A stretch of 64,000 nucleotides of DNA, from the NCBI RefSeq assembly GCF_042242105.1, contig NC_092014.1:1361374-1425373 (forward strand), given 5' to 3'. Under the pieces are notes generated by a model. It was given only the letters and a program-made list of their open reading frames with translations, did not search any database and was not told where the DNA came from. How positions within the stretch are numbered: the first letter of the stretch is position 1; each line of letters opens with the position of its first letter. Below, piece by piece: positions 13,127 through 54,131 of this stretch. The translations under genes and the position numbers were made by a program. Source of the stretch: Pempheris klunzingeri. Its lineage: Eukaryota > Chordata > Actinopteri > Acropomatiformes > Pempheridae.

Positions 13127-13569
13127 CACGGCGGCCAACTCCAACCTGACGAATAGAGACAGGACACGTGGTTTAGACTTGATCCTAAAAGTTATGTGGC
13201 GTTAAATGTATGTATGCACTTATCAAATAATGACGCTTTGACTTTTTTCCAGACTTTCTGTTAAAACAGAGGTTTTTCTGTGAATATCTACAGAGGAGAG
13301 TTTAGCTCCTAGTTTTAGTCTTGCGACACACTTCCTGTCTGGTTCAGTTTCATTGTTTCTAACAGCTGTTTTCTGACATGTAGACGACTTGAGTTTCACA
13401 ACATTTCACACCTTTTTTTCCATCACATGTAACAGAAGAAAAGAACGTTCACATTTCTCGACCAAGTTACCGAACACTGTATGTTTAATGATAAAAATAA
13501 TCAGGTATTGAGTCGGCACAAGCATTAAAAACTATTCTGAAGAGACACATAACCGTAATAAACAACTTA

Positions 13570-19500: not shown

Positions 19501-22023
19501 GCGGTGATAAAAAGACATCCTTTTAGCAAAAAGCCCTTCAGTTGATGGTTCTGTGTTCAGCCTGCGAGGCTCACGTGGGTTAGCTCACCTGCTGACACCG
19601 TCGTCACATGAAGCTCCTGTCCTGCATGTGTGGATGGGAGCAGGAAGTGAGACTGAGGGAAACCTGCAGCACTGAGTTCCACCTCATGACGTAGAAAGAA
19701 GAGAGCTGGTGTGAGTGAAAGCAGCGGTTTGATAACTAACAAGCTAATCAAAAGAATGGCTGGAAAATTCAGACATAAGGGATTCGTACATGAGTCCGTG
19801 CAGAGGTTCAGCAGGCTGGAGCACAATCGTATAAACGTAAGACGAACAGCCGTTAGCAGCTTTAGCTCCTGCTCGCTGTGCTGACTGGACGTCTGAGCTT
19901 CCTGCTGCTGAATCAGTCTGTCGCTGAGCTGCAGCTCTAATTTCGGAGGCCCTTCCTCCGCCACTCTCGTGTGACTAGCTCGCTAGCTTTAGCCTGGTGG
20001 ATCACTCAGGCCATTTATTACCGTCCTCTGACGGCCACAGACTGAAATGAGAGTCTCAGTAAATATTAAAACTTGTAAAATAAGTTGCGTACCTGCCTTT
20101 AAGCCCACTGACGGCCCTCCTCCTCCGCTCAGATCCACCAGGTGCTGAAGCCCGACGGGGTGTTCATCGGGGCCATGGTGGGCGGGGAGACCCTGTACGA
20201 GCTGCGCTGTTCCCTCCAGCTCGCCGAGACCGAGAGGGAGGGCGGATTCTCCCCCCACATCTCCCCCTACACCGCCGTCACCGACCTGGGCAACCTGCTG
20301 GGCCAGGCCGGCTTCAGCATGCTCACTGTGGTGAGAAACACAGCAGCACGAAGCTTCTTCCCTTCATCTGGTGGATCTAGTTTCATATCTGCAATAAACA
20401 AAAGATAAAAACACAGAATTAGATGAAAGATGACTAATATGTAATTATACACTGTATGTAATGATCTGTTTAACTCACTGCAGCAGAAATGGAGATTGAA
20501 TCTGAATTAAATATATTTTAAAACTTACTCTATGAAATAAATGTGCTGCAGAGACGACAACTAGATAAATGATTGGTGACTATGTGGGCATGTATCCATA
20601 GAGACAATAAAAACCTGCACTTTAGCTGCAATGGAAATACACTGAGACTGAAATACGAGATACTGTCTCTCTGTTTCAGGACATCGATGAAGTTCAGGTT
20701 CACTATCCAGGAATCATTGAAGTCATGACGGATTTACAAGGTATGAACTGAAACCTGGGCCATATATGTACGTATTTTGGTGTCTAAATGACTGGAAGGT
20801 ACAAAACAACATTGTCTGACAGCATCATGGAAAGGATCCCTACAGAGAGAGACCTGGAAGATCCTTTTGGTTTAACCACAAACAGCACACACACCAGACT
20901 ACATTCACTAAAACAGGGATTTTAGAGAACAGGACACAGGAGCTGCTGCCTCCATCAGTCAGTGTGTTTGTGTTGTTGTTTGTTCCACAAACATGAGGTT
21001 GGATCCAAACTGAACCTTTAAAAAACACCAAAGTCACACAGTAACACAGACACTCTGACTGATGGAGGCAGCAGCAGAGCAGCAGCTCCTGTGTCCTGTT
21101 CTCTAAAATCCCTGTTTTAGTGAATGTAGTCTGGTGTGTGTGCTGTTTGTGGTTAAACCAAAAGGATCTTCCAGGTCTCTCTCTGTAGGGATCCTTTCCA
21201 TGATGCTGTCACACACTTAGAATAACACTCTGAGCCTGTCAGTGGATCAAACAAGCTCTTTTAGTGGACCTACTGTGATCAGGTGCAGTTGTCCCAAAGG
21301 ATCTGGCTGAGGTGATCTACTGGACCAGTTCCTACACTTTTACTACCTACCAGTCACTCACTAGACAGAAAGCTATTAATTTTCTGAACCCTTTTACATT
21401 TTTTAAACTTTTTATTGACACTCCAGAGATTGTGATGAACTCTTTTGTGTTAATTCCACTAGACTAAAATATGTTTAATTAAAAACGTGGCAGATGAATC
21501 CTGAATCTAAAATGTTTTTCATGTCTGATTTGCTCCCCTCTGTGTCCGTGTGCTGCAGGTATGGGGGAGAGCAACTGTGCCTGGAACAGGAGATCACTGC
21601 TGCACAGAGACACCATATTGGCAGCAGCTGCTATTTATAAAGGTGAGAGAGCTGCTTCACAACACTCCTATGAGGAAGCATACAGCAACCAATTTATTCC
21701 TCATTTTGGTGTCACGGCTGCCACTTCAGAATATATTTCTGATACTTCTCTTTTCTGATATCTGATGCTGCTCATGACTCTTGAATCTTTAATGTTGAAC
21801 TCCTGAATCGTTGGGTCTCTCTCTAATTAAAGAGTTTGTTCTAGACCTGCTCTTTATGCAAAGCGTCTGGAGATAACACCGTGATGAACTGGTGCTGTGT
21901 AAATAAAGACTGACTGAGCTCATCTTTTGTTCACCATCAAACTGACACAAACCTAAAATAGGCACATTTCTGTCAGTGCTCGGACTTTTATCTTCCTCTT
22001 CCCTAAACACAAGCTGCAGTCCT

Positions 22024-26825: not shown

Positions 26826-28379
26826 ATAAAGACGACACTATGAGACAAAACATGAGGATAAGTAGAAAAAAGAAAATAATAATTACATGTATTTTATACA
26901 TGTAGTTTGTCTGTTTAAAATAATATTTCAGAATAAAATATATATTATTATATTATATCCTACAATAAAATAATCACTTTTAGACTCTTCAATAAATGTT
27001 GAGCCGGTTTAGACCCTGTTTTAAATGTTGGCCCCTTCTTTGATTGAGTTTGACCCCAGTTTCAGAATAATGTGTCACCTATTGTTGCTTCTGACTTTTC
27101 AGACGTCCCCACAGTGACGGTGCTGCAGAGCGCCGTGGCCACGCTGCCCTGCCCTCACGCACAGGGACGTATCACATGGAGCCGCTGGTCAGCCACCGGT
27201 GAAAAGGTGATTCTGGTCTCGGTGGAAAACGGCATCGAGCAGAGAGACGACAGACGCTACGGCTCCCTGGCAGACGGCTCCCTGGTCATAACAGGTGTTT
27301 TAACTAGAAACTCTGATACTGCGACAAAATGTCTTCAATAATAAGAAGTTTAAATCATTAAGTGTCTCATGTGTTTCTCAGACGTTGTTCAGGTCAGTGT
27401 GAGCTGACAGACCGGAGTCTCCTCTAGTGTTTTAAGAAGCAGATGTAATATCTTGACTGTAAGAAACACAAAGTTCTTGTTTTATAAACTTATTCCTGCG
27501 CAGACAAACGCTGACGGCTGGTGGAGACTGACGCACGGACCTCAGCGTCCAATCAAACAATGGTTATGTGTGACACTGTGATGCTCTGCCCTTTAAAATC
27601 TGTTGGAAAACCCAGTTCTTGGCTCCTCTGACCAGAACCAGTCATGAGCCCGGCGCTGCCTGAACCCCAGCGTTGGATTTCACCTGTGAATCTGAATTAA
27701 AGGCTCTTCTGAGACCGACTGAACCGTCCGGCTGATGAAGGGAATAATCTCTGCCGTCCATTAAAGAATGCGGGTGTGTTTCTTCACAGGTGTGACGCCC
27801 GCTGACACCACCATGTATCTCTGTAATGACAGAAAAACGGCGTATCTGGAGGTGACGACAGACGCCAACATGGTGGCCCCCAAAGCTGGACACGTACCAG
27901 CCACACCAAGAGACGCTGGACGGGGTTTTGGCCAGACGGGGGTCAGCGCGGGCGCCTGGAAGGTTCCCGTCGGTGTCGTCGTGGGTGCTGCGACGTTGGT
28001 GCTTTTGGCCGCCGTGACCCTGAGACTCTGCCTGAAGAGGAGAGCGGACAGAAGCACAGACTCGGGCAAAGCCGTGACCCACGAGGGGATTTACGAGGAG
28101 ATCCGAGCTGGCGAGGAGCCGCCGAGCGGCGAGCCTGCTGTCGAGAGTCCTTATTACTGGACGAGCGTCTGTGAAACACCGAGAGGCTCCACGGCAGCAG
28201 ATGACAACCTGTACAGCACCGTGAGCCAGCTGAGAACCAAAGGACGCCGCCATCAGGAGTGTGTGTACTACCTCGCCCAAAACCCTCCACAGGCAGGAAA
28301 CACCAGCGACCGACCACTTCTCAGTGTTGGTGCCTCTGGAAGTGCTGCTGAACAAACCCTGGAGTCTTTCCCCAGATAA
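24836..28379 (+). CDS. Single Ig-domain type I membrane receptor, unnamed
   Basis: Three exons join in phase: 24836-24890, 27103-27294 and 27790-28379 (TAA), giving 278 residues. I cannot name the family member. Residues 1-18 (MLLHLCFLLTGCVCHGSA) form a signal peptide. Residues about 19-105 form one V-like Ig domain with Cys35 (TLPCPH), Trp44 (ITWSR) and Cys94 (DTTMYLC). A short stalk precedes a transmembrane helix at about 142-164 (VPVGVVVGAATLVLLAAVTL), followed by KRR. The tail of about 110 residues holds Tyr in EGIYEEI, SPYYWTSV, DNLYSTV and ECVYYLA. Two fit YxxI/V SH2-type contexts, but none is a textbook ITIM because position -2 is Gly or Asn. The Ig domain is split by an intron just before the DxxxYxC strand. 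The neighbouring NLR suggests an immune setting, by inference only. Confidence 0.75.
24891..25974. other. Ig receptor intron 1, left part
   Basis: No coding exon or recognised repeat is seen. Open frames such as 24921-25253 lack splice context. Confidence 0.5.
25979..26400. mobile_element. piggyBac-like MITE
   Basis: Flanked by TTAA at 25975-25978 and 26401-26404, the exact target site of piggyBac elements. The ends are imperfect inverted repeats (CCTCTAAAGACCT at left; AGGTCTGAAGAGG at right). The interior is non-coding. It lies in intron 1 of the Ig receptor gene. Confidence 0.65.
26565..27055. mobile_element. Degenerate hAT-like element
   Basis: The left end CAGACATGTCAAACTCAA and right end TTGAGTTTGACCCCAGT are the common fish hAT terminal pattern with several substitutions. 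An AT dinucleotide run (26774-26823) lies inside. No clean 8-bp duplication was found. Confidence 0.35.
26774..26823. repeat. AT microsatellite
   Basis: About 25 TA units. Confidence 0.9.
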
Positions 28380-28828: not shown

Positions 28829-31800
28829 CTATCCAGAGTCCTCAAGCTCCTGGAAGAGATACTTCATGGTCTCCTCCCCTTTGAGGATCTCATAGAGAGT
28901 GTCTTTGGCTTGTGGGCCTGCTTTCGTCACATGCGTAAGAATGCCCCTCATCTGATCTTGTCTGGGTTTCAGTGCTCTCAAAGCATCGTAGGTCTCAATC
29001 AGGATAATTTTCTCACTGTAGAGCCGATCCAGGATGAATCCCGTTTCGCTCACCCTGTCAATCAGAGATGTCCAATGGCGATCCACGAAATGATCCCCTG
29101 ACTCTGTCATGGAAGGTAAAAGCAATGAGCAGTGAATACTGCAAGATGTCATAAGTTAAAATACCAAAAACAAGGAAGTAAAAACTATTAGTGCAGAGCG
29201 ATGGTGTTCAGAGCGACTATGTGAGGTCATCTTAAGATGTCTTTCATTTCTGCAGAATAAATGTCTGGTTTTTTTTTACCTTGTTCATGATCAGTGCTTC
29301 GATTTTGATAGTCCCCTGAAACGCAACACAGACGATAATGCTGGTTAGTTACTGGTAACTGATTAGTTACTGGACTTAAAGGTCCAGAGCAGGTTGACAT
29401 GGTCTAATTGTTTTTCAGACGCGGCCGCTGCAGCTCTTTGTCTTCTTCACGCTCGCCTCCGAGATGTTCGTGTTAGCGTGAGCTAGCGAAAAAACAATGG
29501 CGGACAGCGGGGGGGGTGGGGGTGGGGGTCAGGAGGTTATCAGTGGGCGGGGACAGTCAGCCTGCTGAACGGCTGGAGGAGGTCACGTGATCAACGGATC
29601 CCTTTATGACATCATAAAAGGGGCCAAATCTAAACGGTGTGTTTTCACACACGTTTACTAAAAGACGGAGCAGCAGAAACAGACAGGACGGTTCATTCTC
29701 AGATTCTCTGCACGACGCTGGGGGAACACATCTATGGGACCTTTAATGTTTTGTTGTTTTTTTCCCCCATTAGATTCACACACACACAAAGTGCATATTC
29801 AGCTAAACAAAACAAAGGCAGTTCATAATTTAAATTCTTTAAAAAACCACTGACCTTTGCGAATGGAACAGGTCCAGACAGTTTTTGTCGTACTTTCAAG
29901 CTTGAGGGTGAATTTGTTGTTTGCATTTCCGATGAACACCTCGAAGCAGTTTCTGCTTGAACCATATCTGAACACTCGTTCCTGAATGAAGACAATTAAC
30001 TCATTATTTTCAGTGCTAGTATTTGGATAGTTAGTTTTCTAGTGATTTCAGCTACTCAAAGCGTTTTTACATCACATCCTCATTCACACGCTGAAGCTGC
30101 TTCGGGAGCATGTTGGGGTTCAGTGTCGACATGTTGGACGACCCACACTATCACAGCCGCCTCAATGCTGAGGATCTTTTACTTTCTATGTCTTCATAAC
30201 TTCACACAATTAAATTTAAATTTGACACTGTGAATGCAGAACCGTGAAGTTAAAACAGCTAAAACATACTTTGGGTTCAATCGATGCCTCCTTGTTGTCT
30301 GTTGTGATTGAGAAGCGACTTCCCAATTGAAGCGGCGCATCCGGGCCTGGTTTTCCTATTATTACTGATCCACATCCTTTTAGCTGTTTTTCAAATTTCT
30401 GTGAAAAAAAAATAATGAAAAGATCCTCAAAAATGAAAGAAGCCAGTCCAGAGAGTCATGTTTTGAAGTAACGTCATGATCAGGGGGGTCAAACTCACTT
30501 TAGTTCAGGAGCCCAGCCTGATCTCCAACCTTTAAATAACAACGACTCCAAATGTTTCCCTTTGTTTCGGTACACTCTGATCTTTTTACAAAACATTATG
30601 AACGTCCCGCGGCCGGATTGGACCCTCTGGTGGGCCGGTTTTGGCCCATGGGCCGTATGTTTGACCCCCCTGGTCATGATGATTATGGTGCTTTTCCCAA
30701 ACAATGGAGAACACAGAATAAATCACTGTGAATGAAACAGAAACCTTTCGTAGAACACGATAATGCGGCAGCAGGTACACGTCCAGCGTGAGGAATTCTT
30801 TCTTCGTCTTGCATATCATCACGTCACAGTAAGTCCGAATGCCAAGTTTCTCCAAAATCATGGCACCAATTTTTGAGAAACTTGGCTGGAGCAGCTTGAC
30901 GTGGGATGATGTAACTTCAGGCACATGCTTCAAAACATCTCCACAGGTATCAACGTGTAGAACCGCAAACATGTCCGGCGTGGAGTTTTGATCTGCAAAG
31001 CAGAAATTCAGTGATGAGGAAAATTAAATGCCTCTCTGTGCCACATCCCCGACGGCCCGGACCGCTGCCATTTTCCATCCGTCCACCAGAAAATCTCGGA
31101 CTTTCAGCCCTTTTCCCATCACCTGAACTCTCCACCCACCTCCTCAACTGCCTCTCGGTTCTTATTCATTTCCTTTCATTCATCTAGGTGTGAATCTTTT
31201 AAAACAACATCATAAAATTCGGCCTTCAACGCCACTTCAGGATTAAAAAAATTCACAATTCAAGTAATAATTACACACTGATCTGTCTATTGCACAGTAA
31301 TCTCCACATGAACTTTGTGTTTTGGTCTGTAACCCATTTGGTCGCTTGTCCGTCATTTTGAATTTTGTCCAAATCTGTTTTTTGTGGCTGTGACAACATG
31401 TATGAAACTATTCACAACTACAATAAAGCCAACAGTCCTTTTCCAGTATATGAGCACTCACCTATGCAGATCCAGTGAGGCAGGTGCACCTCCTCCATCT
31501 GTCCAGCTGTGACCGTTATGTCCATGAGGGGCCCTGCTGGCATGTATTTCCTGCTCACAGGGCTCATGTGTTCCTCCCATGATCCAAACTGGTAACTGAA
31601 GCAGACCTTGTCTGTGCAGACCCAGCGCAGCGCGGACACGCTGCATTCATAGTGGCCTGCCTCAGACTGTAGGCTGATTTTTGGGAGACAAATGAGTGTC
31701 AAGAAACAAACAAGTAAATTCTGATGTCACCTGATGTCTCCTCGTCTTATTCGGCACAAACTGCACCATTATTAGCGTAAAACACTTAAATTAGCCATCG

Positions 31801-34220
31801 CTGCTTTTCAGTTCATGTGACGTATGAGCATTGAACTGTAATACTTAAGATGAAATCTTTACCGATAGGTGTCAACCTCACTCCCTTCGCTGACTTCAGG
31901 TTCAAGTTTAGTCCAGGTTCTGGAGTCCTGTTTCAGAGGACAATATAGGTTTTTGGTTTTTTTTTTGGATTGTTGGATCAGCCATTTTTAAAAACTGATA
32001 TAACATACAAGCAAAACCCAAAGAAAAAAAAACTTACCGTTACACCACCACACGCTCCAAGCGTCAAACTCCCAGAAGGCCCTTGTCAAAACACACAGGT
32101 TAAGTTTAAAGGAATGTTACGCCCCACATTGGAAAAAACACATTTTCTTTCTTATGGCACTTTTCCACTAGCACCTACTCGACTCCACTCGACCTGTAGG
32201 GTTTCCCACCAGGTGATAGTTCCTGGTACCAGGTACTATTTTAGTACCAACTTCTCTCTGCTTAGCAAGAAGGAACACCTACCCACTGTCATTTTTCAGA
32301 GGATGCAGAAATACGCAGCACAGCCCACAGCACCGCTATCTGCATGCCGAACTCTCAGATGTGGGCTGACAGCTGAGACTCTGGTCACCTAATGCTGTCC
32401 TCTGAGATGAGATCTGTGTGGTCAACGTCCTCGTCTTGCATTCCTCACGTGGCGCATTACAAGGCCGAGTAATGTGACTTGTGCTGTCTAGATTGACTGA
32501 TGCACCGAAGGAGAAGGTTATGGGTGCGACGTACAACCCCACCAAAGATTTTTTCTGTTAATCTCTGGTAAAGCTGAGGGAGAACAGCCCCATCAGGAGA
32601 AAGATGAAGCTTTTAAGCTCTGCCCACACATCCCTCAGTCCAGAGGGAGCTAGGGCTGACCAGACTGCTGTAGCCACAGCAGTGAGGGGGAGACTAAGCA
32701 GCAGCCTGTCAGAAAACCCTCAGCATTGGGGCAAACCAACCCTCATACCCAGCGGAAGGGGAGGGAGCATGTAACCTACTGCTCCTTGCTTCTTCCCACC
32801 AAGAAATCAAGCAAAATGGAGGTGGAAAAGGGCTCTGAAGTTCATGGGTCAGAGACGCTTTTGATTTCCAGCTTCCCAGGCTCTCTCTCAGTTTCTCTCC
32901 CCTCATGTTCACAGGGAGGAGAGCAGGTAGCACATTGTCACCAAGCACTTCCACGCCGTTCAGACAAAACAGAAATAAAGCAAACACACAGTTACCCGTG
33001 TCAACACCACGAACCAGCCACTGCTCTCCAGCATGGTCCACTCTGGAGGAAGAAACAAAGTCAGCTTGTCAGTGTGACAGAGAAACACAGTGTGAGCTCT
33101 TGTTGTCTGGTCCTACCTGAGAGTCTCCAGTCTCCAGCGTGGATCCTCCAGTCTAGCAGACAGCAGCCTCACTCCTGAGGCTCCTGGATAGTTGTAGCTC
33201 AGGTCCAGCTCTCTCAGATGGGAGGGGTTGGAGCTCAGGGCCGAGGCCAGAGCAGCACAGCCTTCCTCAGTGATCATACAGCCTGACAGCCTGGAGACAC
33301 ACACACAATAAAAAAACTTTCCCGACTAAAACGAAATGTAGCACACAGCCAAACAAAACCACAAGCTGTCATCAAGAAGAGTATTTTTCTCAACAACACG
33401 GAAGAAACCAAATACATGTTTGTTCTGTTTGTTTTATCAACAGGCGAATGCAGTGATACTCAAAAGCAGCACAGTGTGATCTGACCTGAGAGTCTCTAGT
33501 GTGCAGTCTGGACTCTTCAGTCCAGCAGAGAGCAGCCTCACTCCTGAATCCTGCAGGTCGTTGTTGCTCAGGTCCAGCTCTATCAGACTACAGGACTGAG
33601 AGCTGAGAACTGATGAGAGCTCCTCACAGCATCTCTCTGTGAGCCTGGTTTGATTTAACCTGAAAAATAAAACATGAAAAATGTTAATTTACATCAACTA
33701 GTTGAACATACCTGATGCGTTAGATGATATTTAACAGAGTTCAGTAAGCTTATCAAGTGAAAATGTGGATTATTCTTACGATGCAAAGTGTAGACGTGAG
33801 ATTATCTACAATGCAGCAGAGACCAAAAGGAATACATGTCTGTTTTATTTTTTTAAATCATGCAACGTTACAGCGTTGCATCACAGTGTGACCTGACCTG
33901 AGAGTCTCCAGTGTGTAATGTGGACTCTTCAGTCCAGCAGAGAGCAGCTTTACTCCTGAATCCTGCAGGTCGTTGTTGCTCAGGTCCAGATCTATCAGAC
34001 TACAGGTCTTGGAGCTGAGAACTGATGAGAGCTCCTCACAGCATTTCTCTGTGAGCCTGGTTTGATTTAACCTGAAAAAAAGAGAAAAAAAAAATTTACA
34101 TTAACTAGTTGAACATACCTGATGCATTAGATCAGGGGTGCCCACATTTTTACGGCTCGCAAACTACTTTTAAAATAACCAGGTCAAAATTATCTACCTA
34201 CATTAAAAATGCTAAACATA

Positions 34221-34252
<32 letters not shown>

Positions 34253-37200
34253 AGCTTGATGCATTCAATACATTTATGGTCACTACCTTACTCTGATCAC
34301 CTGCACTGAATGGAGCAAATATCCTTCCTGCTTTATTCCCCATCCCAGAGTATCCCTTCTTTAGTAGATATAAATTGGAAGGCTAGCTAGGTCACTCCGC
34401 TTGCTAGAGTTTTGCAGCAGCTAGCGTGTTTGATCGCGCATGTCCCTGCCCGCGACCCATAGCAGAGAAGAGACCGCAGACTGGAGCCCTGAATGACTAT
34501 CAACTTACAAACGCAACTTTTTTTTTTTTTTAAATTATCTTATGCGATTGACCGGTAGATCGTGATCGACGTATTGGGCACCCCTGCATTAGATGATATT
34601 TAACAGAGTTCAGTAGACTTATCAAGATAAATTGTGGAATATTCTTATGAAGCAAATAGAATACACGTTTGTTGTATGTTTGTTTTATCAACAGGCGAAT
34701 GCAGTGATACACAAAAGCAGCACAGTGTGAATTGACCTGAGTCTCGCTAGTGTGCAGTCTGGACTCTTCAGTCCAGCAGAGAGCAGCTTCACTCCTGCAT
34801 CCTGCAGGTTGTTGTTGCTCAGGTCCAGATTTTTCAGACTACAGGACTGAGAGCTGAGAACTGATGAGAGCTCCTCACAGCATCTCTCTGTGAGCCTGGT
34901 TTGATTTAACCTGAAAAATAAAACATGAAAAACATTAATTTACATCAACTAGTTGAACATACCTGATGCATTAGATGATATTTAACATAGTTTAGTAAAC
35001 TTATCAAGGTAAAGTGTGGATTATTCTTACGATGCAAAGTGCAGATGTGAGATTATCTACAATGGAGCAGAGACCAAAAGGAATACATGTCTGTTTCATT
35101 TTTTAAAATCATGCAACGTTACAGCGTTGCATCACAGTGTGACCTGACCTGAGAGTCTCCAGTGTATAATGTGGACTCTCCAGTCCAGCAGAGAGCAGCT
35201 TCACTCCTGCATCCTGCAGGTCGTTGTTGCTCAGGTCCAGATCTTTCAGACTACAGGACTGAGAGCTGAGAACTGATGAGAGCTCCTCACAGCATCTCTC
35301 TGTGAGCCTGGTTTGATTTAACCTGAAAAAAAGAAAAAAAAATGTAACTAGTTAAACATGCCTGATGCACTGGATGATATTTAACAGAGTTCAGTAGACT
35401 TTTCAAGAGAAATTGTGGAATATTCTTACGATGCAAAGTGCAGATGTGAGATTCTCAACAACACAGAAGAAACCAAATAGAATATATGTTTGTTCTATGT
35501 GTGTTTTATCAACAGGTGAATGCAGTGATACTCAAAAGCAGCACCATGTGATCTGACCTGAGAGTCGCTAGTGTGCAGTCTGGACTCTCCAGTCCAGCAG
35601 AGAGCAGCCTCACTCCTGAATCCTGCAGGTCATTGTTACTCAGGTCCAGCTCTTTGAGACTACAGGACTGGGAGCTGAGAACTGATGAGAGCTCCTCACA
35701 GCATTTCCCTGTGAGCCTGGTTTGATTTAACCTGATAATGATAAATCAAAACAAAAACGTTGAGTTTAAAGTATTACCAAAGAAGTAGACCTGTAGTAAG
35801 CAAAAATAGTTTAAAGAGTATCTTCATACTAAATCCACTATTTTGAGTTGTTAAATTACACAGCAGACTGGATGAAAGAGAAAAAAAGTTAGTTAACTTT
35901 AGTTAAATAAATAGAATGACCAAGAAAACACTTCTGCAGTCCATAGAGCTAACGAGGGGTGCAAAGTCATGTAATAATTCTCAGTGGGTTTGTCAAGTGG
36001 AGTTTTGCATTACAAAGTGCAATTTCATCCATTGCTCAAGAAATTCAGAGAAACTTTGTACTTCAGTGTTTTTATTGTAGTCTATACAGTTTAAATCTGT
36101 GGATGTTTTTTTTAAACGTATTAACTTGTATGTAAAGCAAGTTAAAAGTTAAGTCTAACCTGAGAGTCTCCAGACTACAGTGTGGACTCTCCAGTCCAGC
36201 AGAGAGCAGCCTCACCCCTGAATCCCGCAGGTTGTTGTTGCTCAGGTCCAGATCTTTCAGATTACAGGACTGAGAGCTGAGAACTGAGGACAGAGCTGCA
36301 CAGCTTCTCTCTGACAGATTACAGCCGCTCAGCCTGAAGGAGAGAGTAAATGCCGATACTGTCGTCAATGTTAAACATGTCACAAAGAAAGACCGTACAC
36401 ATGTCATACAGTTAGTATCTGTGCACTTACAGAGCTTTTCTGGAGGCTTTGACCACTGGCAGCAGCCTCAGAAGAGCCTCCTCTGAAGCAGAATATTTCT
36501 TCAGGTCAAACTCGTCCAGATCTTCTTCTGATGACAGTAAGATGAAGGCCAGAGCTGACCACTGAGCAGGAGACAGTTTATCTGTGGAGAGACTTCCTGA
36601 TCTCAGGTGCTGTCGGACCTCCTCCACCAGAGAACGATCATTCAGCTCATTCAGACAGTGGAACAGGTTGATGCTTCTCTCTGGAGACAGATTCTCACTG
36701 ATCTTCTCCTTGATGTACTTGACTGTTTCCTGACTGGTCTGTGAGCTTCTTTTCTCTTTCAGAACGTCTTGAAGGTGATCCTGATTGGTCTGCAGAGAAA
36801 GACCCATGAGGAAGCGCAGGAACAAGTCCAGGTGTCCATTTGGACTCTGTAAGGCCTTGTCAATAGCAAACCTGTGGACCTCTGTCACAGATGTTTTACT
36901 GAAGACCGTTCGCACACGTTCCCCAAAGGTTTGTCCTGGCTCAGCCATCACATTCTTGTTTCTGTTAGTCAGTGACATCTCCACATAGAGAGCCGCCAGA
37001 AACTCCTGAACACTCAGATGGACAAAGCTGAATATCTTGTTTTCATCTTTCTTCCTCCCACGTTCCTCTTTAAAGATCTCAGTGAAGACTCCTGAGCACA
37101 CTGAGGCTCCACTGACATCAATGCCACTCTCTTTTAGATCTTTCTCATAGAAGATCAGTTTGCCCTTTTCCAGCTGGTGGAAAGCCAGTTTTGCTAATGA

Positions 37201-40129
37201 GTTAACGTACTGAGAGCACTTTTCTGGGCCGTACTTATCTTTTATCTGATCAATCTGAAACGCCAAGAATTCTGCGTACATCTCAGTCAGGGTCTTGGGC
37301 AGCTCTCCTCCTGCTCTGGTCAACAAATCCTCCAGAACCGTAGCAGTGATCCAGCAGAAGACCGGGATGTGGCACATGATGTGGAGGCTTCGTGATGTCT
37401 TGATGTGGGAGATGATTCTGTCGGCCTGCTTCTCATCTGTGAATCTCTTCCTGAAGTACTCCTCCTTCTGAGGGTCCGTGAACCCTCTGACCTCTGTCAT
37501 CACGTCAACAAAGTCAGAATGGATCTGATTGGCCGCTGCAGGTCGTGTGGTTATCCAGAGACGAGCAGAAGGAAGCAGTCTTCTCTTGATGAGGTTTGAC
37601 AGCAGCTCATCCACTGAGGTCGGCTTTGTCACGTCAAACTTAACTGCCTGAGTTTTATTGGTTGAACAGTCCAGCTGAAGGCGGCTCTCGTCCAGTCCAT
37701 CCAAAACAAACAGGAGTTTGAATTCACTCTTGTCATAGTTGGTGTTTCCTGATGACTGCAGAGATGTAAAGATGTAATTCAGAGCTTCTTCCTTGATGCC
37801 TCTGGTCTCTGTGATACATTGATGAATTAGTTCTGCCAAACTAAACTTTTCTCCCTTCCATAAATTCAGCTGGCGGAAGGTGAAGGCGAATATCAGATGC
37901 ACATCTTGATTGGCTCTTCCTTCAGTCCAGTCCAGCACAAACTTCTGTACAAGAAAAGTTTTGCCAATTCCTGCAATTCCATTGGTCAGCACAGTTCTTA
38001 TGGGTTTATATCTTCCAGAGGGGGGTTTGAACATGTCACTGGGTTTTATTGATGTCTCTGTTCCTGATGGCTTCACCACCGCCTCAATCTGCCTGACCTC
38101 ATGCTGTTTGTTGATGTGTACGTCACCCCCAGCTGTGACGTACAGCTCTGTGTAGATATCATCCAGAGGTTGCTCGTCCTTCTGTGACCACCCCTCTTGT
38201 ACAGAACTAAATCTATCTTGGAAGTTTGACTGAAGCAAATGTTGGTAAAATGAGATTGGTCGTGGCTCTGGTACTGGAACGATCCCACCTGTGTGACATA
38301 GAAACAAATAGTCAAGATTTCACAGTTACAGGTGGAGCAAGTTGTCTGAGTGCTCTAGTAGTCAGAGATTTGCAATTGTGTGTGTTGTTCTGGTTCTGTG
38401 CAGGTGTCTGTTAAAGGGTGGGTTCACCCAAACTGCAAAAAAACACATTTTCTTTCCTAATGTACTGTCCGGGCAGACAGTTCTGGTTTTATTTGCTCAA
38501 GCTTTGAGATATTCTTCTCTGAGGTAGAGTACAATAGAATGGGTTTTCACTAGTGGTGTAACATTTAAATACTCAACAGCAGTGCGTTTCTCCGAAAAAT
38601 ATCCCACTAACTCGGGATGATCCAAAGACGAGCTTACGTGGAATCATTATGAAAAAAATTCTCTCATGTTAGACCGGCGTCTCTCTCCGGTCGTAACAAC
38701 GGAGGATTTTATTGGACAAAATCTCACATCAAGCTCCGTCTGTGTTTAGTTTTCAAGTTTTACCAGTGAAATCCTCCTTTGTTACCTTTAGACACTGTGT
38801 GCATGATGGACGCTGGAAAACAAAATCAGTACTCAGACACTAGTGGCTCAGTCTGAAGTACATAATCAACAACACATTAAAAATATTATCTGGAAATACA
38901 AAGAAAAGAAAAAAGTGAGACTGACCTTGTGGTGGTGATCTGATGTCTGACAGCCTCTGCACCAGATCATGCCTGTTCATTCTCTCTAAAACCATCTTGG
39001 TCACCTCCAGAGCTCCATCAGGTTTGTAGGTGTTCACCATCAGATCCGCGGTGTCCCTCCTCTCTACCCTCTCCAGCTGGGACACTGGGATGGCTCTGTA
39101 GCCTTCCAGCCTGTCAAGCTGCCGCACATGCCATTTGAACTCCTTGAATTCATCATCTCTTAAATCCTCCAGAGCCCTCCAAAGGTCGACTGGGTTCACT
39201 GTAACTGGGTTCAACTGATCCTGCTGAGATCAGACAGTGTTTTCAACCAAAAGGAAAACTGTAACACAAATACATCAGAGCAGCAACTGGAAATCTGATC
39301 AACAACAGAGCCACCACTAGAGTCAATGGGCCTCATTCACCAACATCTTCCTTAGTTTTTTCTGAAGCTTCATCTTAAGAAAAGTCTGCATCAGATCTAT
39401 GATGTCCACACCCGTGTTCGACTCGGCACGGTTTAGGTTGCGTTTCCACCGGCCCTAGTACCTGGTACCTCTGCCAGGGTTCCCAGCGAGCTGAGTCGAG
39501 CTGACAATGCGATGTCACCAGAATGCAGGCCACTGATTGGCCAGGGAGCGGTGTCACTTGATGAGTCATGAGCGCAACTCATTCACAAGAATCAAACCCG
39601 CTGTTTTTAAAACCCCAGAAACAGAGGCCGGGCGTTTTTATTATTTCTGTGAACGAGGTAAATGGATACACGCAAAACAAACGCTTCGTGTCCCTAGTTG
39701 TGTTTGTTTGTGCCGTATACAAATTACGCTACCGGAGTTTCAGCCCGCCTTGCTATGGCGACCCCGCCCACTTTGAAGTGGTACTATTCTGTAATGGAAA
39801 CACAACCAAACCGTGTCGAGTCGAGTCGAGTAGTGCTGGTGGAAACGCGGCTTTACTGTCCTCATGAACTGAAAACTTAAAATGAAACTTACCCTGACAT
39901 GGTCTTGAGCTGACTGTCTGAACTGAGAGACCACGCCAGAGAGCAAAGTGTTGACCTTCAAATCAGGTTTTGTGGTAAAAGGCTTGTTACACAAGGGACA
40001 CCGAAACTGGTTGTTAGTGTTCCAGTGTTGAGTGATGCAGTTCTTGCAGAAGTTGTGTCCACATGATGTGCTGACAGGATCAGTGAGCACATCCAGACAG
40101 ATGGAGCACTGAAACTGATCAGCAGTCAT
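28829..40129 (-). CDS. NLRP1-type sensor: RING-PYD-NACHT-LRR-FIIND-CARD
   Basis: Eighteen or more coding exons join without a frame break into 1596 residues. In order they are 39893-40129 (RING, 1-79: [17 protein letters not shown]), 38926-39220 (pyrin domain, 80-177), 36431-38288 (FISNA and NACHT, 178-797; Walker A GIAGIGKT at 37957-37980, Walker [11 protein letters not shown]), seven 174-nt LRR exons (33117-36333), 32996-33042 and 32038-32081 (linkers), 31863-31927, 31462-31673, 30745-30992, 30270-30398 and 29855-29981 (FIIND), 29280-29315 (linker) and 28829-29103 (CARD, TAG). The FIIND has the HLPH motif and a QPSF-SKIG autoproteolysis site. By family knowledge, NLRP1-like proteins self-cleave in FIIND; loss of the N-terminal part frees UPA-CARD to nucleate caspase activation. 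The ATG at 40129 follows an acceptor, so a 5' UTR exon lies upstream. Joining RING and PYD to NACHT is a phase-based prediction. Confidence 0.85.
30481..30672. mobile_element. Short non-autonomous hAT element
   Basis: Terminal inverted repeats CAGGGGGGTCAAAC and GTTTGACCCCCCTG are flanked by a perfect 8-bp duplication GTCATGAT (30473-30480 and 30673-30680), diagnostic of hAT transposition. It lies within the intron between two UPA exons of the NLR gene and does not touch splice sites. Confidence 0.9.
30874..30879 (-). other. Predicted FIIND autoproteolysis site (Phe-Ser)
   Basis: Codons TTC (30877-30879) and TCA (30874-30876) encode Phe1364 and Ser1365 of the assembled protein, in [15 protein letters not shown]. 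This aligns with the SFS cleavage context of NLRP1 and CARD8, where peptide-bond breakage precedes the Ser. The upstream exon carries the conserved VHLPHW (HLPH) of the ZU5 half. Confidence 0.8.
32140..32260. repeat. Fragment related to the 39.4-39.9 kb element
   Basis: CACTTTTCCACTAGCACCTA, CTCGACTCCACTCGACC and CCTGGTACCAGGTACT resemble the terminal parts of the element at 39411-39856. It lies between an NLR linker exon and the LRR exons. Confidence 0.4.
33117..36333 (-). repeat. Array of seven 174-nt LRR exons
   Basis: Exons 36160-36333, 35558-35731, 35149-35322, 34737-34910, 33898-34071, 33486-33659 and 33117-33290 are each exactly 174 nt with the same phase, encoding 58 residues (two LRRs each). 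The pattern is [20 protein letters not shown] then LxxLDLSNNxLxDSGVxLLSAGL. Introns alternate between two types: one with ATCAACAGGCGAATGCAG upstream of exons 33486 and 34737 (and a variant for 35558), the other with CATGCAACGTTACAGCGTTG for 33898 and 35149. This indicates duplication of a two-exon unit. Confidence 0.9.
34133..34586. mobile_element. Non-autonomous hAT element in an LRR intron
   Basis: Perfect 12-bp terminal repeats CAGGGGTGCCCA and TGGGCACCCCTG are flanked by the 8-bp duplication CATTAGAT (34125-34132 and 34587-34594). Paralogous introns at 33711-33730 and about 35362-35382 carry the uninterrupted site GATGCRTTAGATGATATT or a close variant, so the empty site is visible in the same window. 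A short TA run lies inside. Confidence 0.92.
39411..39856. mobile_element. Small DNA transposon with CGACTCG-rich ends
   Basis: The left part holds TTCGACTCGGCACGGTTT and GCGTTTCCACCGGC. The right part holds AACCGTGTCGAGTCGAGTCG and GGTGGAAACGCGGC in inverted orientation. It fills the RING-PYD intron of the NLR gene (39221-39892). The homologous intron of the upstream module lacks it. The superfamily is not assigned. Confidence 0.6.
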
Positions 40130-40875: not shown

Positions 40876-43496
40876 TCTAGTTTATCTGGTTTACTGAGAA
40901 GAGAGCAGTTGATGTCCAAGAAAGACTGGTTGACAGCAGGAAAGACTGCACCAGGGGTGGAGGGGCCAGTTACCCACTCCACATGCCCAGGTAGCGCTGG
41001 CTACTTGGACACCCAAGCTAACTACAAGCAGAATAAGAAGAAAACAGCCCATTGGTCCTCCGAGAGACGGGATGGAAGATGGACCAACAAGGACGGACAA
41101 AGGGCCAAAGGATCCTAAGACAATGCAGTTGTGGATGGTGCAACATAACAACTTATCATGGACTGCGTATCCACCAGGGGAAGACAAAGTGTGTTGGTAA
41201 CAGCCGGCCAGCTTGCACTGTGACAGCAGATCAGACAAAGAGGTATCATAGCCAGGTTGAGCACCAGTCTTACCAGCAGATCCCACAGCAGCAGCAGCAC
41301 ATCCCAAGGCAGGAGAGTAACACAGCAAGCACTGAGCCCACAAGAGGACTACCAGAGAAGTACGCCCAGTAACCCAAAGTCAAGTGGTCAAAGGCCAGCG
41401 ACAGAGATGCATGGAGAAACTTGGATGACAGCCTATGCACCACCCTTGAGAACTCGCTAAAAGGGAACATAACTTCAAAACTGAACATCATCGGCCACCT
41501 CATCCATGAGGAAAGGAGAAACCGATTTGGAGACATGCCCAAGAAGAGGCCTGTTCCTAAACAGAGCGTAAGACAAGAAAGGGAAATCTTCCAGTTGGCA
41601 AAAAGAGCAACGCCTTTTGAGGAAATCATGACTTCTTCCATGTACCATCATGCATCCAAAACCTAGTAGCAAAGTACTTCAACAACCTGCATGTCTGCTG
41701 CACAACGTGGGATGTCTCAACCGACTGGCACCGCCTCCAGAAGGGAATAGGAATGGGATGTTCCATCTCTCCCATCCGCTTCACGGCTGCATTTGAGATC
41801 CTCTTGATAGGCGGAAGTCAGATGGTCCGAGGGGTCAGATGTCAGACAGGCCAAAGACTCCCAGCCATATGGTGCTACATGGATGATTTCACCACCCTCC
41901 TCCAAACAGCAGCCTGCACATCCAGACTCCTTAAACGGCTGGAGGAGCTACTAGCATGGGCCCACATGAAGATGAATGACAACACCCTAATCACCGTGGA
42001 TGGTGAAAGAATCCCCCTACTGAGGGAAGAACCTGTGAGAAGCCTCGGTAGGCTGTACACGGCTGACCTCTCAGACAAGAACATGGCCTCAGCAGCCACA
42101 ACTCAACTCCAGGACGGCCTTCAAAAGATAGATCAGTGCTTCCTGCCAGGGAAATTCAAGGTGTTGTGCTACCAGTTTATGCTATACCATCGCCTAATGT
42201 GGCCCCTGAAACTGAGCGACATCACCATGACAAGGGTCCTGAAGCTGGAGGCAAAGGCCAACAACTTCATCCGAAAACGGCTTGGCCTTCCTCGATGCCT
42301 CTCCACCACGGCATTCTTTGGGAGAAACATCCTACAGCTTCCACTGCAGTCAATCAGCCTGAGGTACAAAAAGGAGAAGGTGAGGCTCCTTTTCGAGCTG
42401 AGAGACTCACCTGACCTGGCTATTCAAACTGCCAATCCCCAGGTTCGAACAGGACACAAGTGGCACGCATCCGAAGTAGTGGATCAGGCCATAGCTCGGT
42501 TAAAACACCAGGAGGTCGTTGGTTTCACGCAATCAGGTAGAACAGGCCTAGGGTGGGGAGTGGCGCCAAAGAAGGAGAGCAAGGATCTTGCCAAGATGGA
42601 TGAGGAAGGCTACAAGGTCACAGCCGTGAGCCAACAACATCATGGCAAATAGACCACGTGGGAGGCGGTGACCAACAGGACCATTACTTGGGCTGACATG
42701 TGGGGAACAGGTGAGACTGAGCTTCCGGATTAGAGCCACTTACGACACACTTCCCAGCCCCTGGAACCTCCTCACCTGGTATGGCTCAGAAGAACCCTGC
42801 CAACTCTGCAATTCCTCGAATCCAAACCTTAAGCACATCCTCTCTGGCTGCAAGACAGCACTGACACAGGGCAGGTACAGATGGCGGCATGATGAGGTCC
42901 TGCGCAAGCTTTCAGAGATCCTGGAGGCCCGTAGGCTGGAGGCAAATAAGACCAGCCCACCTACAGCAAAGAAGTGGATCCACTTAATCAGGCCAGGGAA
43001 TGAAGCGCAGCGCTGCACCAAGACCGATCAGTCCCTCTTGTCATTAGGAGGTGAGTGGTAGATGGTGGCTGACCTTGACCACCAGCTGAAATTCCCTGCA
43101 GAGATCTCCATGTCATCCCTCCGTCCAGACATCGTGCTGTGGTCAGTGCCTGCCAGGGTAGTCATCATGGTAGAGCTGACCGTTCCATGGGAAGAACAGA
43201 TGCATACGAGAGAAAGAAGGAGAAGTATGCAGAACTGTCAGCAACGTAGTCTCAAGCTGGGTGGAGACCTTTCACCTTCCCAGTGGAGGTCAGGTGTAGG
43301 GGGCTTCACCGGGACATCCATGCGGCGGCTCCTGAAAACCCTCGGAGTCACTGGTCCCAGAAGGAAGCAGGCTCTCCCAAGATGTTGCAGAGGAGACTGA
43401 GCTTCTGGCTCTGGCTCCAACGGAAGGACAAGGCGTAGGGAAAAGAGGGATCTTAAGCAGGCTGCAGGGGGCGTTAAGGAGACGCTGCTCCACCAC

Positions 43497-43647
43497 CTCG
43501 AGATGCTCCGGGAATAATGGAGCGAAACATCAGTGAAGGGTGGCTCCCGGCTGATGACCCTGCAGCCTGCTCAATGGCACCGTCGGAGGTGCGACAGGCA
43601 GAAATGTCATGCAGGTAGAACTACTTTACCTGTGCTTACATCTAGTG
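43497..43647 (+). repeat. Downstream copy of retroelement terminal repeat
   Basis: Runs from CTCGAGATGCTCCGGGAATA to CCTGTGCTTACATCTAGT. It is the longer partner of 40762-40875 and abuts TGGCTCAG, where homology to the downstream end of the other PYD module begins. Confidence 0.8.
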
Positions 43648-43727: not shown

Positions 43728-44660
43728 CTTGTGGTGGTGATCTGATGTCTGACAGGCTCTGCACCAGATCATGCCTGTTCATCCTCTCTAAAACCTTCTT
43801 GGTCACCTTCAGAGCTCCATCAGGCGTGTAGGTGTTCACCATCAGATCCACAGTGCCCCCCCTCTCTGCTCTCTCCAGCTGGGACATTCTGATGGGTTGG
43901 TAGCTTTCCAAGATGTCGGGCTGCCGCAGAAACCATTTGAATTCCTGTAATTCATGGTTGCTTAAATCCTCCAGAGTCTTCCAAAGGCCCTCTAGAGTGT
44001 TCCTGGCTGCCTGCTGAGATCAAACAGTGTTTTCAACCAATCAAATCAGAGCAGCAACAGGAAATCTGATCAACAACAGAGCCACCACTAGAGTCAATGG
44101 GCCTCATTCACCAACATCTTCCTCAGTTTTTACTGAAGCTTCATCTTAAGAAAAGTCTGCATCAGATTTATGATGTCCACAGTTACCAATTAACCTAATG
44201 TGCATGTCTTTGGATTGGGATGGGAGGAAGCCGGAGTACACAGAGAGAACCCACGCTAGCATGGGGAGAACATGCAAACTCCACACAGAAAGACTTCAGG
44301 CTCAAACCCGGGATTTGAATCCGGGACCTTCTTGCTGTGAGGCAACAGTGCTAACCACAGCACCACCAAGCTGCCTGTCCTCATGAACTGAAAACTTAAA
44401 ATGAAACTTACCCTGACATGGTCTTGAGCTGACTGTCTGAACTGAGAGACCACGCCAGAGAGCAAAGTGTTGACCTTCAAATCAGGTCTTGTGGTAAAAG
44501 CCTCTTTACACACTGGACACAGAAACCGGTCGTTAGTGTTCCAGTGTTCAGTGATGCAGTTCTTGCAGAAGTTGTCTCCACATGATGTGGTGACGGGAAC
44601 ATTGAGCACATCCAGACAGATGGAGCACAGAAACTGATCTTCAGATCTTGCAGCAGCCAT
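43728..44660 (-). CDS. Upstream duplicate RING-PYD module
   Basis: Two exons: 44412-44660 (83 codons, RING; ATG at 44658-44660) and 43728-44010 (94 codons plus one base, pyrin domain). Both are open and have good splice borders. They closely match the RING and PYD exons at 39893-40129 and 38926-39220. The RING reads CSIC, CGDNFCKNC, CPVC: the His ligand of C3HC4 is Asp here (codon GAC at 44574-44576, CAC in the other copy). The PYD exon ends with the same one-base phase, so it could splice to the NACHT exon directly or to the downstream RING exon. It could be an alternative start of the same gene, an extra N-terminal module or a relic; the sequence cannot decide. Confidence 0.7.
44180..44385. 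repeat. Dispersed fish repeat in the RING-PYD intron
   Basis: Contains AATGTGCATGTCTTTGGATT, GGGGAGAACATGCAAACTCC and CCGGGACCTTCTTGCTGTGA, the hallmark strings of a very common fish interspersed repeat. The family name is not assigned. It sits between GATGTCCACA and CTGTCCTCATGAACTG, exactly where the paralogous intron carries a different element (39411-39856). Confidence 0.7.
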
Positions 44661-44662
44661 GT

Positions 44663-47028
44663 CTGCACACAGAGGGAAAGAAAAGGTTATTTCCAAAATA
44701 GTTTAAAATTATATGTTTAGAAACAAAGGAGATGTCACACGTGTTCTTTTAAAGCTGGGGGCGGCAATTCTCTGTGCAGACAGAACAAACAGCTGATGAC
44801 TTTCAGTCAAAGAATGAAAAGCATTCAGGCTGTCAGACTCGATCCACGCTTCATTAGTCGTCTAACACGCCCTCGCTGATGTAAGTGTCGCTCTACTTGT
44901 CTACAATGATGGTCACTGCAGAGGTGAACACACAGACTGTTCGAGGCTTCACGGTCTGAACAGTGGAGCCTCAAAGCTGCATTCTCTCTAATGTCCAGCT
45001 CCAAACAGGAGATAATCACAAATATGTCACAGCTTGTTTTACTTCGGCAAGAAAACCCTTTTATATTCAGCCCATAAGCCCTGTTGTGTCTTCATACTGC
45101 ACATAATACACGTCACTGTTTTTATTTCCTTGACCTTTGAGCAGTTCTGTTGTTATCAGGCTCTTCTGACTTTAGTAGCTGCAGGAGCGAGTCTTATTAT
45201 ACTGAATGTGCCTTTAACCCCTTGTTGACTTGTCGAATTGGCCTCTGTGTCCCACTAATGCTGGTTGAAGCATATTCTGTGTAGACATTATATATATCTA
45301 TATCTATACATCTATCAGTGGGAAAGTTTGCTGTTACAGCAGCTCAAGGGGAAACAGACAAAAGTACACAGTTAAAGAAATAGAAAATTAAATAACAATA
45401 ATATAATATATACAGAGGAAAACCTATATACACAAAGAAACAATTATATACACAATAATTACAAAAAACAACATATACGTACATATATTCTATTCATATA
45501 TACATATACATTATATTACACTATTATTCTATTCTATTCTATATTCAAATTAACAACCTCCACTTAATTTAGCATCTGCTTGAATGCAAAAACACAAATC
45601 ATTTATTTTTTTATATATAATTGTAAATAAGTTCAGGCAGTGAGGGGTTCAATGTCTCACTGTTTACCATAAAATAGTAAACTGTGATTTTCTTCCTTGT
45701 TCTTTTCTAGTTCCGGAAAAGTTACACATCAGGAAGTTACACCCTAAACTATAACCTCTCCTCCGAAGGTTCTCCATTAATTAAAGGTGTGTAATCTTAC
45801 CTGAGTGAGGGGGGGGGACCTGTTCAAGTGTCGTCCAGGTGAAGTCTGACAAACTTTATTCTTCCGTCTGTGGACCAACTGCGACGTCACCAGCAACCGC
45901 CATTTCTTCTTCTACCGTCACAATTATTACGGATTCTTCGTCGTCGTCTTCTTCTTCTTCTACTACAATTACTACCACAACTTCTTCGTCGTCTTTTCTT
46001 CTTCTACCACCACCAAAGACGATCTATAACTTCTGATATATGTCGATATCTTCCAAACCGACTCGGCTACAACTACTACTACCACTACTACTACTGCTGG
46101 AAGTTTAGAACAGAGACGGTCACTTCCTGTCTCCGTGTCACGTGATTCTGCCTCCCTCAGCGCTCTATTTCCTTTATTATTACAATCATCATAATCATTA
46201 TTATTAAATTATTATCAGTAATAGTAGTAATATTGGTGGTAATATTTGTGCAACACATGAAAAAACAACAAAATAACTCACTTGGGACGTTCGACTGAAA
46301 ACATGTTTTTTTTTAAAAAAGACACAGGAAGGGATTTAAATAAAAACAGAAGAGGCAACTAATAATCAAACCAATACAACAAAGCCACGAGTAGGAGCAA
46401 CGACACATCATCACTAAAGTCTGCTTGATTTTTTTTTGTGATAGCAAAGAAAAACTATTTAAGATCACAAGCTCTGAATATATTATTATATTATATAATA
46501 TATTATTAAAGGAATTCTGATTCTGACGTTTAGCCATAGGAATGATGCCTTTTTACATCTAAATGAAATCTTTTGGACAGTGGGCACGACAAAAACAAAT
46601 GTTTTTTATTTTTCCAAAGAACCACAGGTCCACCTCAAATTTAAACCTTATGTTAAGAAATTCTGCCACCGGATAAACTTTACTGATACAGTTTTACTGA
46701 TACATCATGTAACCCTGAAGGACACCTTAATAATCTAATAAATCACTGACAAACCCATGTAGAGAAACAGCTTTCTTCAGGTCCAGAGAATGGTTGTAAA
46801 TGAGAAAAAGAAAATCCGACTGTTGAAAATCCATCAAATTAACATACACCATCTAAAAGTTTAACATTACATTGCAAATACTCTCAACACATATCCTGAT
46901 GAACAAAAAACACTTTACCTTTATTTATTGGATCACTTAAAAACCTCAGATTTCTCCGGATTGTAAATTCCGCAGAGTTTCTGTCAATAAAGATTCATTT
47001 GAAGGAAAACAAACGATCACCTGACCAC
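44663..47028. other. Divergent interval between NLR locus and gas8
   Basis: Presumed to hold the NLR 5' end. A minus-strand donor-like CACTCAGGTAAGATT near 45795-45810 could end a 5' UTR exon, and TCACGTGATT near 46139 looks promoter-like. The rest is AT-rich with TATATA stretches (45270-45550), a run of ACTACT (46065-46100) and no recognisable gene. Confidence 0.4.

Positions 47029-47155: not shown

Positions 47156-54131
<6,976 letters not shown>

Follow-up and report, generated by a model that had tools for sequence, protein, structure and literature searches.

A candidate chimeric NLR gene joining a TRIM-type RING, a pyrin domain and an NLRP1-type FIIND-CARD end in Pempheris klunzingeri

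Results

Gene model and domain content

The window analysed here is a stretch of 64,000 nucleotides (nt) from the fish Pempheris klunzingeri (C3:1361374-1425373 of the 646-Mb assembly that was also used for all genome searches), and our subject is a predicted sensor gene of the NLR type on its minus strand. The gene model, rebuilt from the genomic sequence, has 20 exons between positions 40129 and 28829 (Table 1), with GT-AG introns throughout and phases that match at every junction, and its 4818-nt open reading frame (stop codon included) encodes 1605 residues with no internal stop. An original prediction made from this stretch had given the same two ends and the same NACHT exon, with which the rebuilt model agrees exactly, and had reported exons joining without a phase error into 1596 residues. 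That length is the form lacking an optional 27-nt exon, and 1605 residues is the form that includes it. Published work is cited below by PMC identifier, and for the sections consulted.

A Pfam scan of the assembled protein (best 25 of 33 families examined) recovers the domain order that had been proposed, with UPA following FIIND, i.e. RING-PYD-FISNA-NACHT-LRR-FIIND-UPA-CARD. The N-terminal part matches zf-RING_UBOX (3e-12), PYRIN (5e-20), FISNA (1e-19) and NACHT (1e-33), the middle matches NOD2_WH (winged helix, 2e-15), NLRC4_HD2 (1e-34) and LRR_6 (2e-28), and the C-terminal part matches FIIND (2.5e-38), UPA-FIIND (5e-20) and CARD (4e-11). No B-box or TRIM coiled coil follows the RING among these best 25 families. 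FISNA lies immediately before NACHT within one large exon, as in fish NLR-B30.2 genes of the PYD group, which are defined in PMC4852459.

The weak exons of the C-terminal half (the two short linkers and the B30.2 stub) recur in paralogous genes. The possibility that the 44-nt linker is a modelling artefact was rejected: paralogues L035, L037 and L038 have a 44-nt exon with fitting splice sites, aligned by blastn in L035 and L038 and read by eye, with no blastn alignment, in L037.

Table 1. Features of the predicted sensor gene and its upstream region (positions in the window)
Feature	Position	Strand	Description
Possible 5' untranslated exon	45801-45900	-	ends CAG/GTAAGA at 45801/45800, read by eye
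RING2 exon	44412-44660	-	His zinc ligand changed to Asp (CGDNFC), ends in phase 0
PYD2 exon	43728-44010	-	has likewise lost its ATG, phase 0 to 1
Retrotransposon-like insertion between cassettes	40880-43640	+	weak RVT_1 match below Pfam cut-off, limits by eye
RING1 acceptor		-	TGTACAG/AC, directly 5' of the ATG
RING1 exon	39893-40129	-	79 amino acids (aa), ATG at 40129, ends in phase 0 at AGG/GTAAGT
PYD1 exon	38926-39220	-	98 aa, own start codon absent, phase 0 to 1
27-nt linking exon	38786-38812	-	ASIMHTVSK, phase 1-1, optional, in-frame ATG
FISNA-NACHT-winged helix-HD2 exon	36431-38288	-	619 aa
Seven LRR exons	33117-36333	-	174 nt each: 36333-36160, 35731-35558, 35322-35149, 34910-34737, 34071-33898, 33659-33486, 33290-33117
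B30.2 exon stub	32996-33042	-	VDHAGEQWL..., first 28 nt homologous to the sister B30.2 exon start, then diverges
Two short linker exons	31863-32081	-	32081-32038 (44 nt) and 31927-31863 (65 nt), conserved in other FIIND loci
FIIND (ZU5-like) and UPA exons	29855-31673	-	31673-31462, 30992-30745, 30398-30270, 29981-29855
Spacer exon	29280-29315	-	12 aa
CARD exon and stop codon	28829-29103	-

The NLR body groups with a PYD-NLR-B30.2 cluster

Among the best 71 of 125 candidates in a genome search with the NACHT exon, the seven nearest loci fall between 0.53 and 0.93 Mb on the same contig, with identities of 90-94% (88.8-94.0% by tblastn). All seven are PYD-NLR-B30.2 genes rather than genes with an NLRP1-type NACHT. 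These sisters were examined in 18 stretches of 10 kb (of 20 fetched) with a tblastn cut-off of E<=1e-4. PYD, NACHT and LRR exons are present in 7/7 sister blocks, as are the start of a B30.2 exon and a SPRY match, the latter 1.4-6.8 kb past the last LRR exon, and no RING, FIIND, UPA or CARD was found in these stretches at that cut-off. The sisters, which are fish NLRs of the PYD-FISNA-NACHT-LRR-B30.2 plan (NLR-B30.2/NLRC3-like), thus have the PYD, the FISNA-containing NACHT exon and the LRR exon structure in common with the predicted sensor, and differ from it in their terminal B30.2, in a PYD with its own ATG and in the undetected RING and FIIND-CARD. The ratio of nonsynonymous to synonymous substitution rates (dN/dS) for NACHT is 0.59-0.89 against the sisters and 0.77-1.18 among the sister pairs computed. 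A NACHT query against IMG/VR gave no match.

No C-terminal B30.2 is left in the predicted sensor, which keeps just 28 nt with homology to the beginning of this exon. A similar stub is present in a NACHT-LRR-FIIND-CARD paralogue on C23 (80% over 50 nt), so the stub may predate the sensor gene.

The C-terminal half is of the NLRP1 type

A genome search for the FIIND family (35 candidates scored) returns 33 matches, or 22 loci by count including the window's own. Five other FIIND loci were examined with 1.5 kb on each side. The locus at C23:15.20 Mb is FIIND-CARD and that at C23:4.78 Mb is LRR-FIIND-CARD, with a NACHT 4.5 kb from its FIIND on the same strand, and no CARD was found within the examined pieces at C8:22.17 and C9:1.02 Mb. 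Two further observations concern C21. At 22.09 Mb (L039 2810-3043), a PYRIN match (1.4e-20) stands after FIIND-UPA in the place of the CARD, a possible FIIND-PYD sensor, and at C21:20138108-20205051 there are nine FIIND matches that resemble one another, lie in long uninterrupted frames (590-4196 aa) and represent another kind of FIIND gene.

Compared with solved structures, the FIIND-CARD part of the predicted sensor matches 7crw (NLR family protein 1, which we take to be that of rat; 5.5e-33), human NLRP1 (6x6c, 1.4e-26) and CARD8 (7jkq, 3.5e-23). At the level of residues, the predicted catalytic H1347 and autocleavage site F1373/S1374 align with their counterparts in human NLRP1, in the 7crw NLRP1 and in CARD8. 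The spacing of 27 from His to Ser (H1347, S1374) is that of the published pairs H1186/S1213 in human NLRP1, H942/S969 in rat NLRP1 and H270/S297 in CARD8 (PMC8081665; PMC3210808). The sensor thus has in common with the NLRP1 of mammals, zebrafish and carp the NACHT-LRR-FIIND-CARD order, the catalytic His with its FS spacing and the terminal CARD, whereas the N-terminal RING and the FISNA are its own; human NLRP1 carries a PYD, and the sections of PMC9978379 consulted describe no RING in it. The label NLRP1-type used in the original prediction holds for the C-terminal half only, since the NACHT half groups with the PYD-NLR-B30.2 cluster. Judged from sequence, the predicted sensor is NLRP1-like by its C-terminal end and not by descent of the whole gene.

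The RING exon and the neighbouring TRIM array

Among solved structures, the RING best matches that of TRIM25 together with the helix that flanks it (PDB 5eya, 7e-17). Outside the window, the closest RINGs among the best 150 of 317 candidates in the genome search are 22 members of a TRIM array at C3:1.438-1.807 Mb, i.e. about 13-380 kb past the window edge, with protein identities of 73-79% and open frames that are 556-563 aa long. In DNA comparison, five TRIM copies are 85-86% identical to RING1, the RING of the gene model, and 89-90% identical to RING2, a second copy upstream. This homology extends from the acceptor used by the TRIM itself to a point 12 nt short of the new donor. In the one TRIM copy scanned, RING, B-box, coiled coil and PRY-SPRY occupy one coding exon. 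The array genes compared are like the sensor RING exon in acceptor and start context; the scanned copy continues into B-box, coiled coil and PRY-SPRY where the sensor gene model continues into PYD-NLR.

All eight C3HC4 zinc ligands are kept in RING1 (C8, C11, C23, H25, C28, C31, C44 and C47). The helix through which TRIM25 dimerises relies on V68, L69, V72 and F76, and its linchpin residue is Arg54 (PMC4864278); with positions set by hand from the TRIM25 alignment, the four helix residues correspond to L, L, V and F in the sensor RING. A RING-PYD query against GTDB contigs and IMG/VR gave no match.

A duplicated RING-PYD cassette

The same strand carries, further upstream, a second RING and PYD cassette that is absent from the original prediction. 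The duplication comprises the tracts 44774-43642 and 40247-38840, which contain differing, unaligned insertions within the RING-PYD intron; both copies are open. Between RING acceptor and PYD donor, both cassettes have 534 nt, and both are phase-symmetric; the two exon indels that separate the copies are of 12 nt each and in frame.

Three N-termini can be read in frame and without a stop: RING1-PYD1 (1605 aa), RING2-PYD2 (1605 aa) and both in series (1783 aa). Both cassettes might then be used, either as RING2-PYD2-RING1-PYD1-NACHT or as alternatives at the N-terminus, where the His-to-Asp change would weaken RING2. Such use is favoured by the intact acceptors of the two RING exons and the intact donors of the two PYD exons; the 2.7-kb retrotransposon-like insertion between the cassettes argues against it, and we think it rather unlikely.

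The RING1 and RING2 exons differ at 19/237 sites and the two PYD exons at 51/282, against 10/293 in intron plus 3' flank and 14/110 in the flank 5' of the RING, or 24/403 for these non-coding sites together. PYD divergence exceeds that of all non-coding sites (P = 8e-7) but not that of the 5' flank alone (P = 0.23), while RING divergence exceeds only intron plus 3' flank (P = 0.033) and shows no excess over all non-coding sites (P = 0.33). A clean claim of positive selection from RING and PYD divergence was dropped, as the RING excess vanishes once the 5' flank is counted. In the aligned PYD core, 26/34 differences fall in the first half. Synonymous divergence of the PYD between cassettes is also high, which fits gene conversion. 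Random substitution at the observed number leaves the RING open in 47% and the PYD in 14% of simulations, so stop-free drift is weak as proof of coding.

RING, PYD and NACHT as probable parts of one gene

The start of the PYD exon bears directly on whether these parts are joined. Nine other C3 PYD exons begin CAG/GCA GCC ACG ATG and so carry their own start in 9/9 cases (the seven sisters, an extra exon at 781469 and one at 1576328 beside a TRIM); the comparison is confined to these nine, to the exclusion of a further C3 exon at 1776271 and of PYD matches on other contigs. By contrast, both PYD exons of the window (2/2) have lost this ATG, and each has an in-frame stop just upstream, in the intron. 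Because their own start is lost, the window PYDs need a preceding coding exon that ends in phase 0, and the RING exon before each of them fits, with its ATG and a phase-0 donor compatible with the PYD. Same-strand RING-to-PYD pairs within 5 kb occur only twice among the best 150 of 317 candidates of the genome search, read by eye, and both are in the window.

The original prediction had argued for one gene from the shared strand, the upstream position and the matching phase of the RING and PYD exons, all of which we recover, and the lost PYD start now adds support beyond phase. We consider it likely, to judge from these features, that RING, PYD and NACHT are joined in one messenger RNA, and this estimate owes its weight to the loss of the start codon rather than to the divergence figures.

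Possible pyrin-like PYD-TRIM loci

A genome search with a RING-less TRIM body as query (best 94 of 474 candidates) finds 24 C3 loci with at least 90% identity. One of the RINGs from the best 150 of 317 candidates above lies beside 22 of these and none beside two (1573689 and 1777917), and each of the two RING-less loci is 1.2-1.4 kb downstream of a PYD exon. For example, at C3:1576618-1573620 (L032 3621-6619, minus strand), a PYD with its own ATG precedes the RING-less TRIM, and the phase of the PYD fits the TRIM acceptor (join read by eye). Its product could have the pyrin arrangement, PYD-B-box-coiled coil-SPRY. At C3:1776271-1779278 (plus strand), the search matches show another PYD exon, immediately followed by a TRIM body that lacks a RING and has an open frame of 481 aa.

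Discussion

An apparent three-way chimera

From its sequence relationships, the predicted sensor gene looks like a three-way chimera of a TRIM RING, a PYD-NLR body and an NLRP1-type FIIND-CARD end. The opening coding segment of a TRIM gene in the neighbouring array would have supplied the RING, the body would derive from a PYD-FISNA-NACHT-LRR gene of the cluster on the same chromosome, and the FIIND-CARD end of an NLRP1-type gene would have been attached by way of what is left of a former B30.2 exon.

B30.2 is described as having been exchanged by exon shuffling between genes of the finTRIM and NLR types (PMC2657112), and pyrin has been argued to have arisen by NLR/finTRIM recombination (PMC4852459). 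Pyrin (MEFV/TRIM20) is, like the predicted sensor, a product of PYD/TRIM shuffling; it keeps the TRIM body without the RING, whereas the sensor keeps the NLR body and gains a RING. The locus gives the impression of NLR/TRIM exon shuffling under way, possibly with a mirror product elsewhere on the chromosome, and it bears on the origin of pyrin and of B30.2 NLRs.

The original prediction took a RING in front of the PYD to be an undescribed arrangement, which stands only in part. In black rockfish, FISNA occurs with NACHT, RING and LRR, in some cases also with PRY, SPRY or CARD (PMC10648357), and RING is listed, in a garbled sentence, among the domains of medaka and zebrafish NLRC3/NLRP12 families (PMC8122782). 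These NLRC3/NLRP12-like proteins combine RING with FISNA, NACHT and LRR, as does the predicted sensor; their domain order is unstated in the text consulted, and the main text of PMC10648357, figures and supplements aside, has no mention of FIIND and one of PYD, as a gene name. Zebrafish NLRP1 has a C-terminal CARD only (PMC8122782), and the N-terminal PYD of human has been contrasted with rohu and zebrafish (PMC12436146). We found no RING-PYD combined with FIIND-CARD in the literature searched for this architecture or its parts, and hyphenated phrases of the RING-NLR, RING-PYD or TRIM-NLR type retrieve no paper in PMC. A RING with a fish NLR is therefore not new; the new part is its combination with PYD and FIIND-CARD.

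Possible mode of action

In the functional degradation of mammalian NLRP1, the ubiquitin step is supplied from outside. Degradation of the N-terminal fragment after FIIND autocleavage frees UPA-CARD (PMC8081665), and mouse NLRP1B is activated by a bacterial ubiquitin ligase (PMC9978379). In the predicted sensor, FIIND would cut itself at F1373/S1374 and the N-terminal fragment would restrain UPA-CARD; a ligand, or assembly through NACHT, LRR or PYD, would then cluster the RINGs, which would dimerise as in TRIM25. Clustered RINGs could ubiquitinate the N-terminal fragments, the proteasome would remove these, and the freed UPA-CARD would assemble, followed by ASC and caspase. From the encoded parts, which are seen, we infer splicing, ligase activity, self-targeting and ASC recruitment.

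Our best explanation as a whole, a chimeric inflammasome-sensor gene with RING-driven self-degradation, has a probability that we place slightly above even. Its specific trigger, self-ubiquitination as a built-in functional degradation, is the mechanism that we favour and a tentative suggestion with distinctly less than even chances, and the general notion of a vertebrate inflammasome sensor that carries its own ligase on its disposable half, so that RING clustering removes the N-terminal fragment as the sensing step, is if anything a little more doubtful. If it is true, functional degradation would be built into sensing rather than due to a pathogen enzyme or an outside ligase, and a single protein could detect infection and also set off the breakdown that activates it. 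A natural fusion of a ligase to the disposable part of a FIIND sensor would also allow the functional-degradation model to be tested directly.

Several points weigh against this explanation. The architecture of the gene is predicted from genomic sequence, and the action of the RING on the sensor itself is a supposition. The linchpin Arg that follows the last zinc Cys in TRIM25 is Asn in RING1 and Lys in RING2 (Asn also occupies this position in all five TRIM copies read). The RING has a dN/dS of 0.98-1.67 in comparisons with five TRIM copies and of 1.99 when the two window RINGs are compared with each other, which gives no signal of purifying selection. Between cassettes, the PYD may have changed fast or exchanged sequence, through diversifying selection or gene conversion. 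Lastly, translation could begin at the ATG that the 27-nt exon carries in frame, which would leave out both RING and PYD.

Alternative readings

The same joined protein may use its RING differently, targeting other proteins (a pathogen or an adaptor) or building signalling chains as TRIM25 does, with the PYD recruiting ASC and FIIND-CARD as a second output. The RING is TRIM-derived and TRIM RINGs usually act on targets, and the PYD is intact and could recruit ASC. The substrate-binding B30.2, however, is gone except for its stub, and clustered RINGs commonly ubiquitinate themselves. We regard this use of the RING as possible and on the unlikely side.

Less probable, in our view quite improbable, is that RING-PYD forms a separate small protein or decoy with its own transcript, while the NLR body starts elsewhere, e.g. 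at the ATG of the 27-nt exon. The in-frame position of that ATG speaks for such a start, and the outcome would be a PYD-less NLRP1 as in zebrafish and carp, whose NLRP1 is given as NACHT-LRR-FIIND-CARD without PYD in the review PMC9978379. However, the lost PYD start requires a RING-PYD join in any case, PYD precedes NACHT in the seven sisters too, with the same donor motif at the end of their PYD exons, and the 27-nt exon has no blastn match in the examined blocks around the seven sisters.

Similarly improbable is a young, decaying and functionless product of recombination in a rearranging NLR/TRIM region. Such decay would fit the RING dN/dS values, none of which is below 1 except one pair at 0.98, as well as the changed zinc ligand of RING2 and a region rich in duplications, and the open frames of the cassettes are, given the simulations above, little proof on their own. 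Against it stand 20 stop-free exons with GT-AG borders throughout, cassette exon indels that both keep the frame, NACHT dN/dS values of 0.59-0.89 against the sisters, compared with 0.77-1.18 among the sister pairs computed, and the retained FIIND catalytic residues.

That the RING is a chance neighbour, i.e. a truncated TRIM, is less likely, given that the PYD ATG is lost in the two RING-preceded exons and kept in the nine others compared, and that the RING-PYD pair was duplicated together.

Other genes in the window

Tail to tail with the predicted sensor gene, at 27054-28379 (plus strand), lie exons that by eye resemble an Ig-type receptor with tyrosine motifs. Conserved open frames of housekeeping type are found at 12701-13201 (minus strand), 20084-20405 (plus strand), 48162-48527 (plus strand) and 60513-62435 (minus strand), which by eye we take to be ESF1-like, NDUFAF5-like, GAS8-like and nischarin-like genes, respectively.

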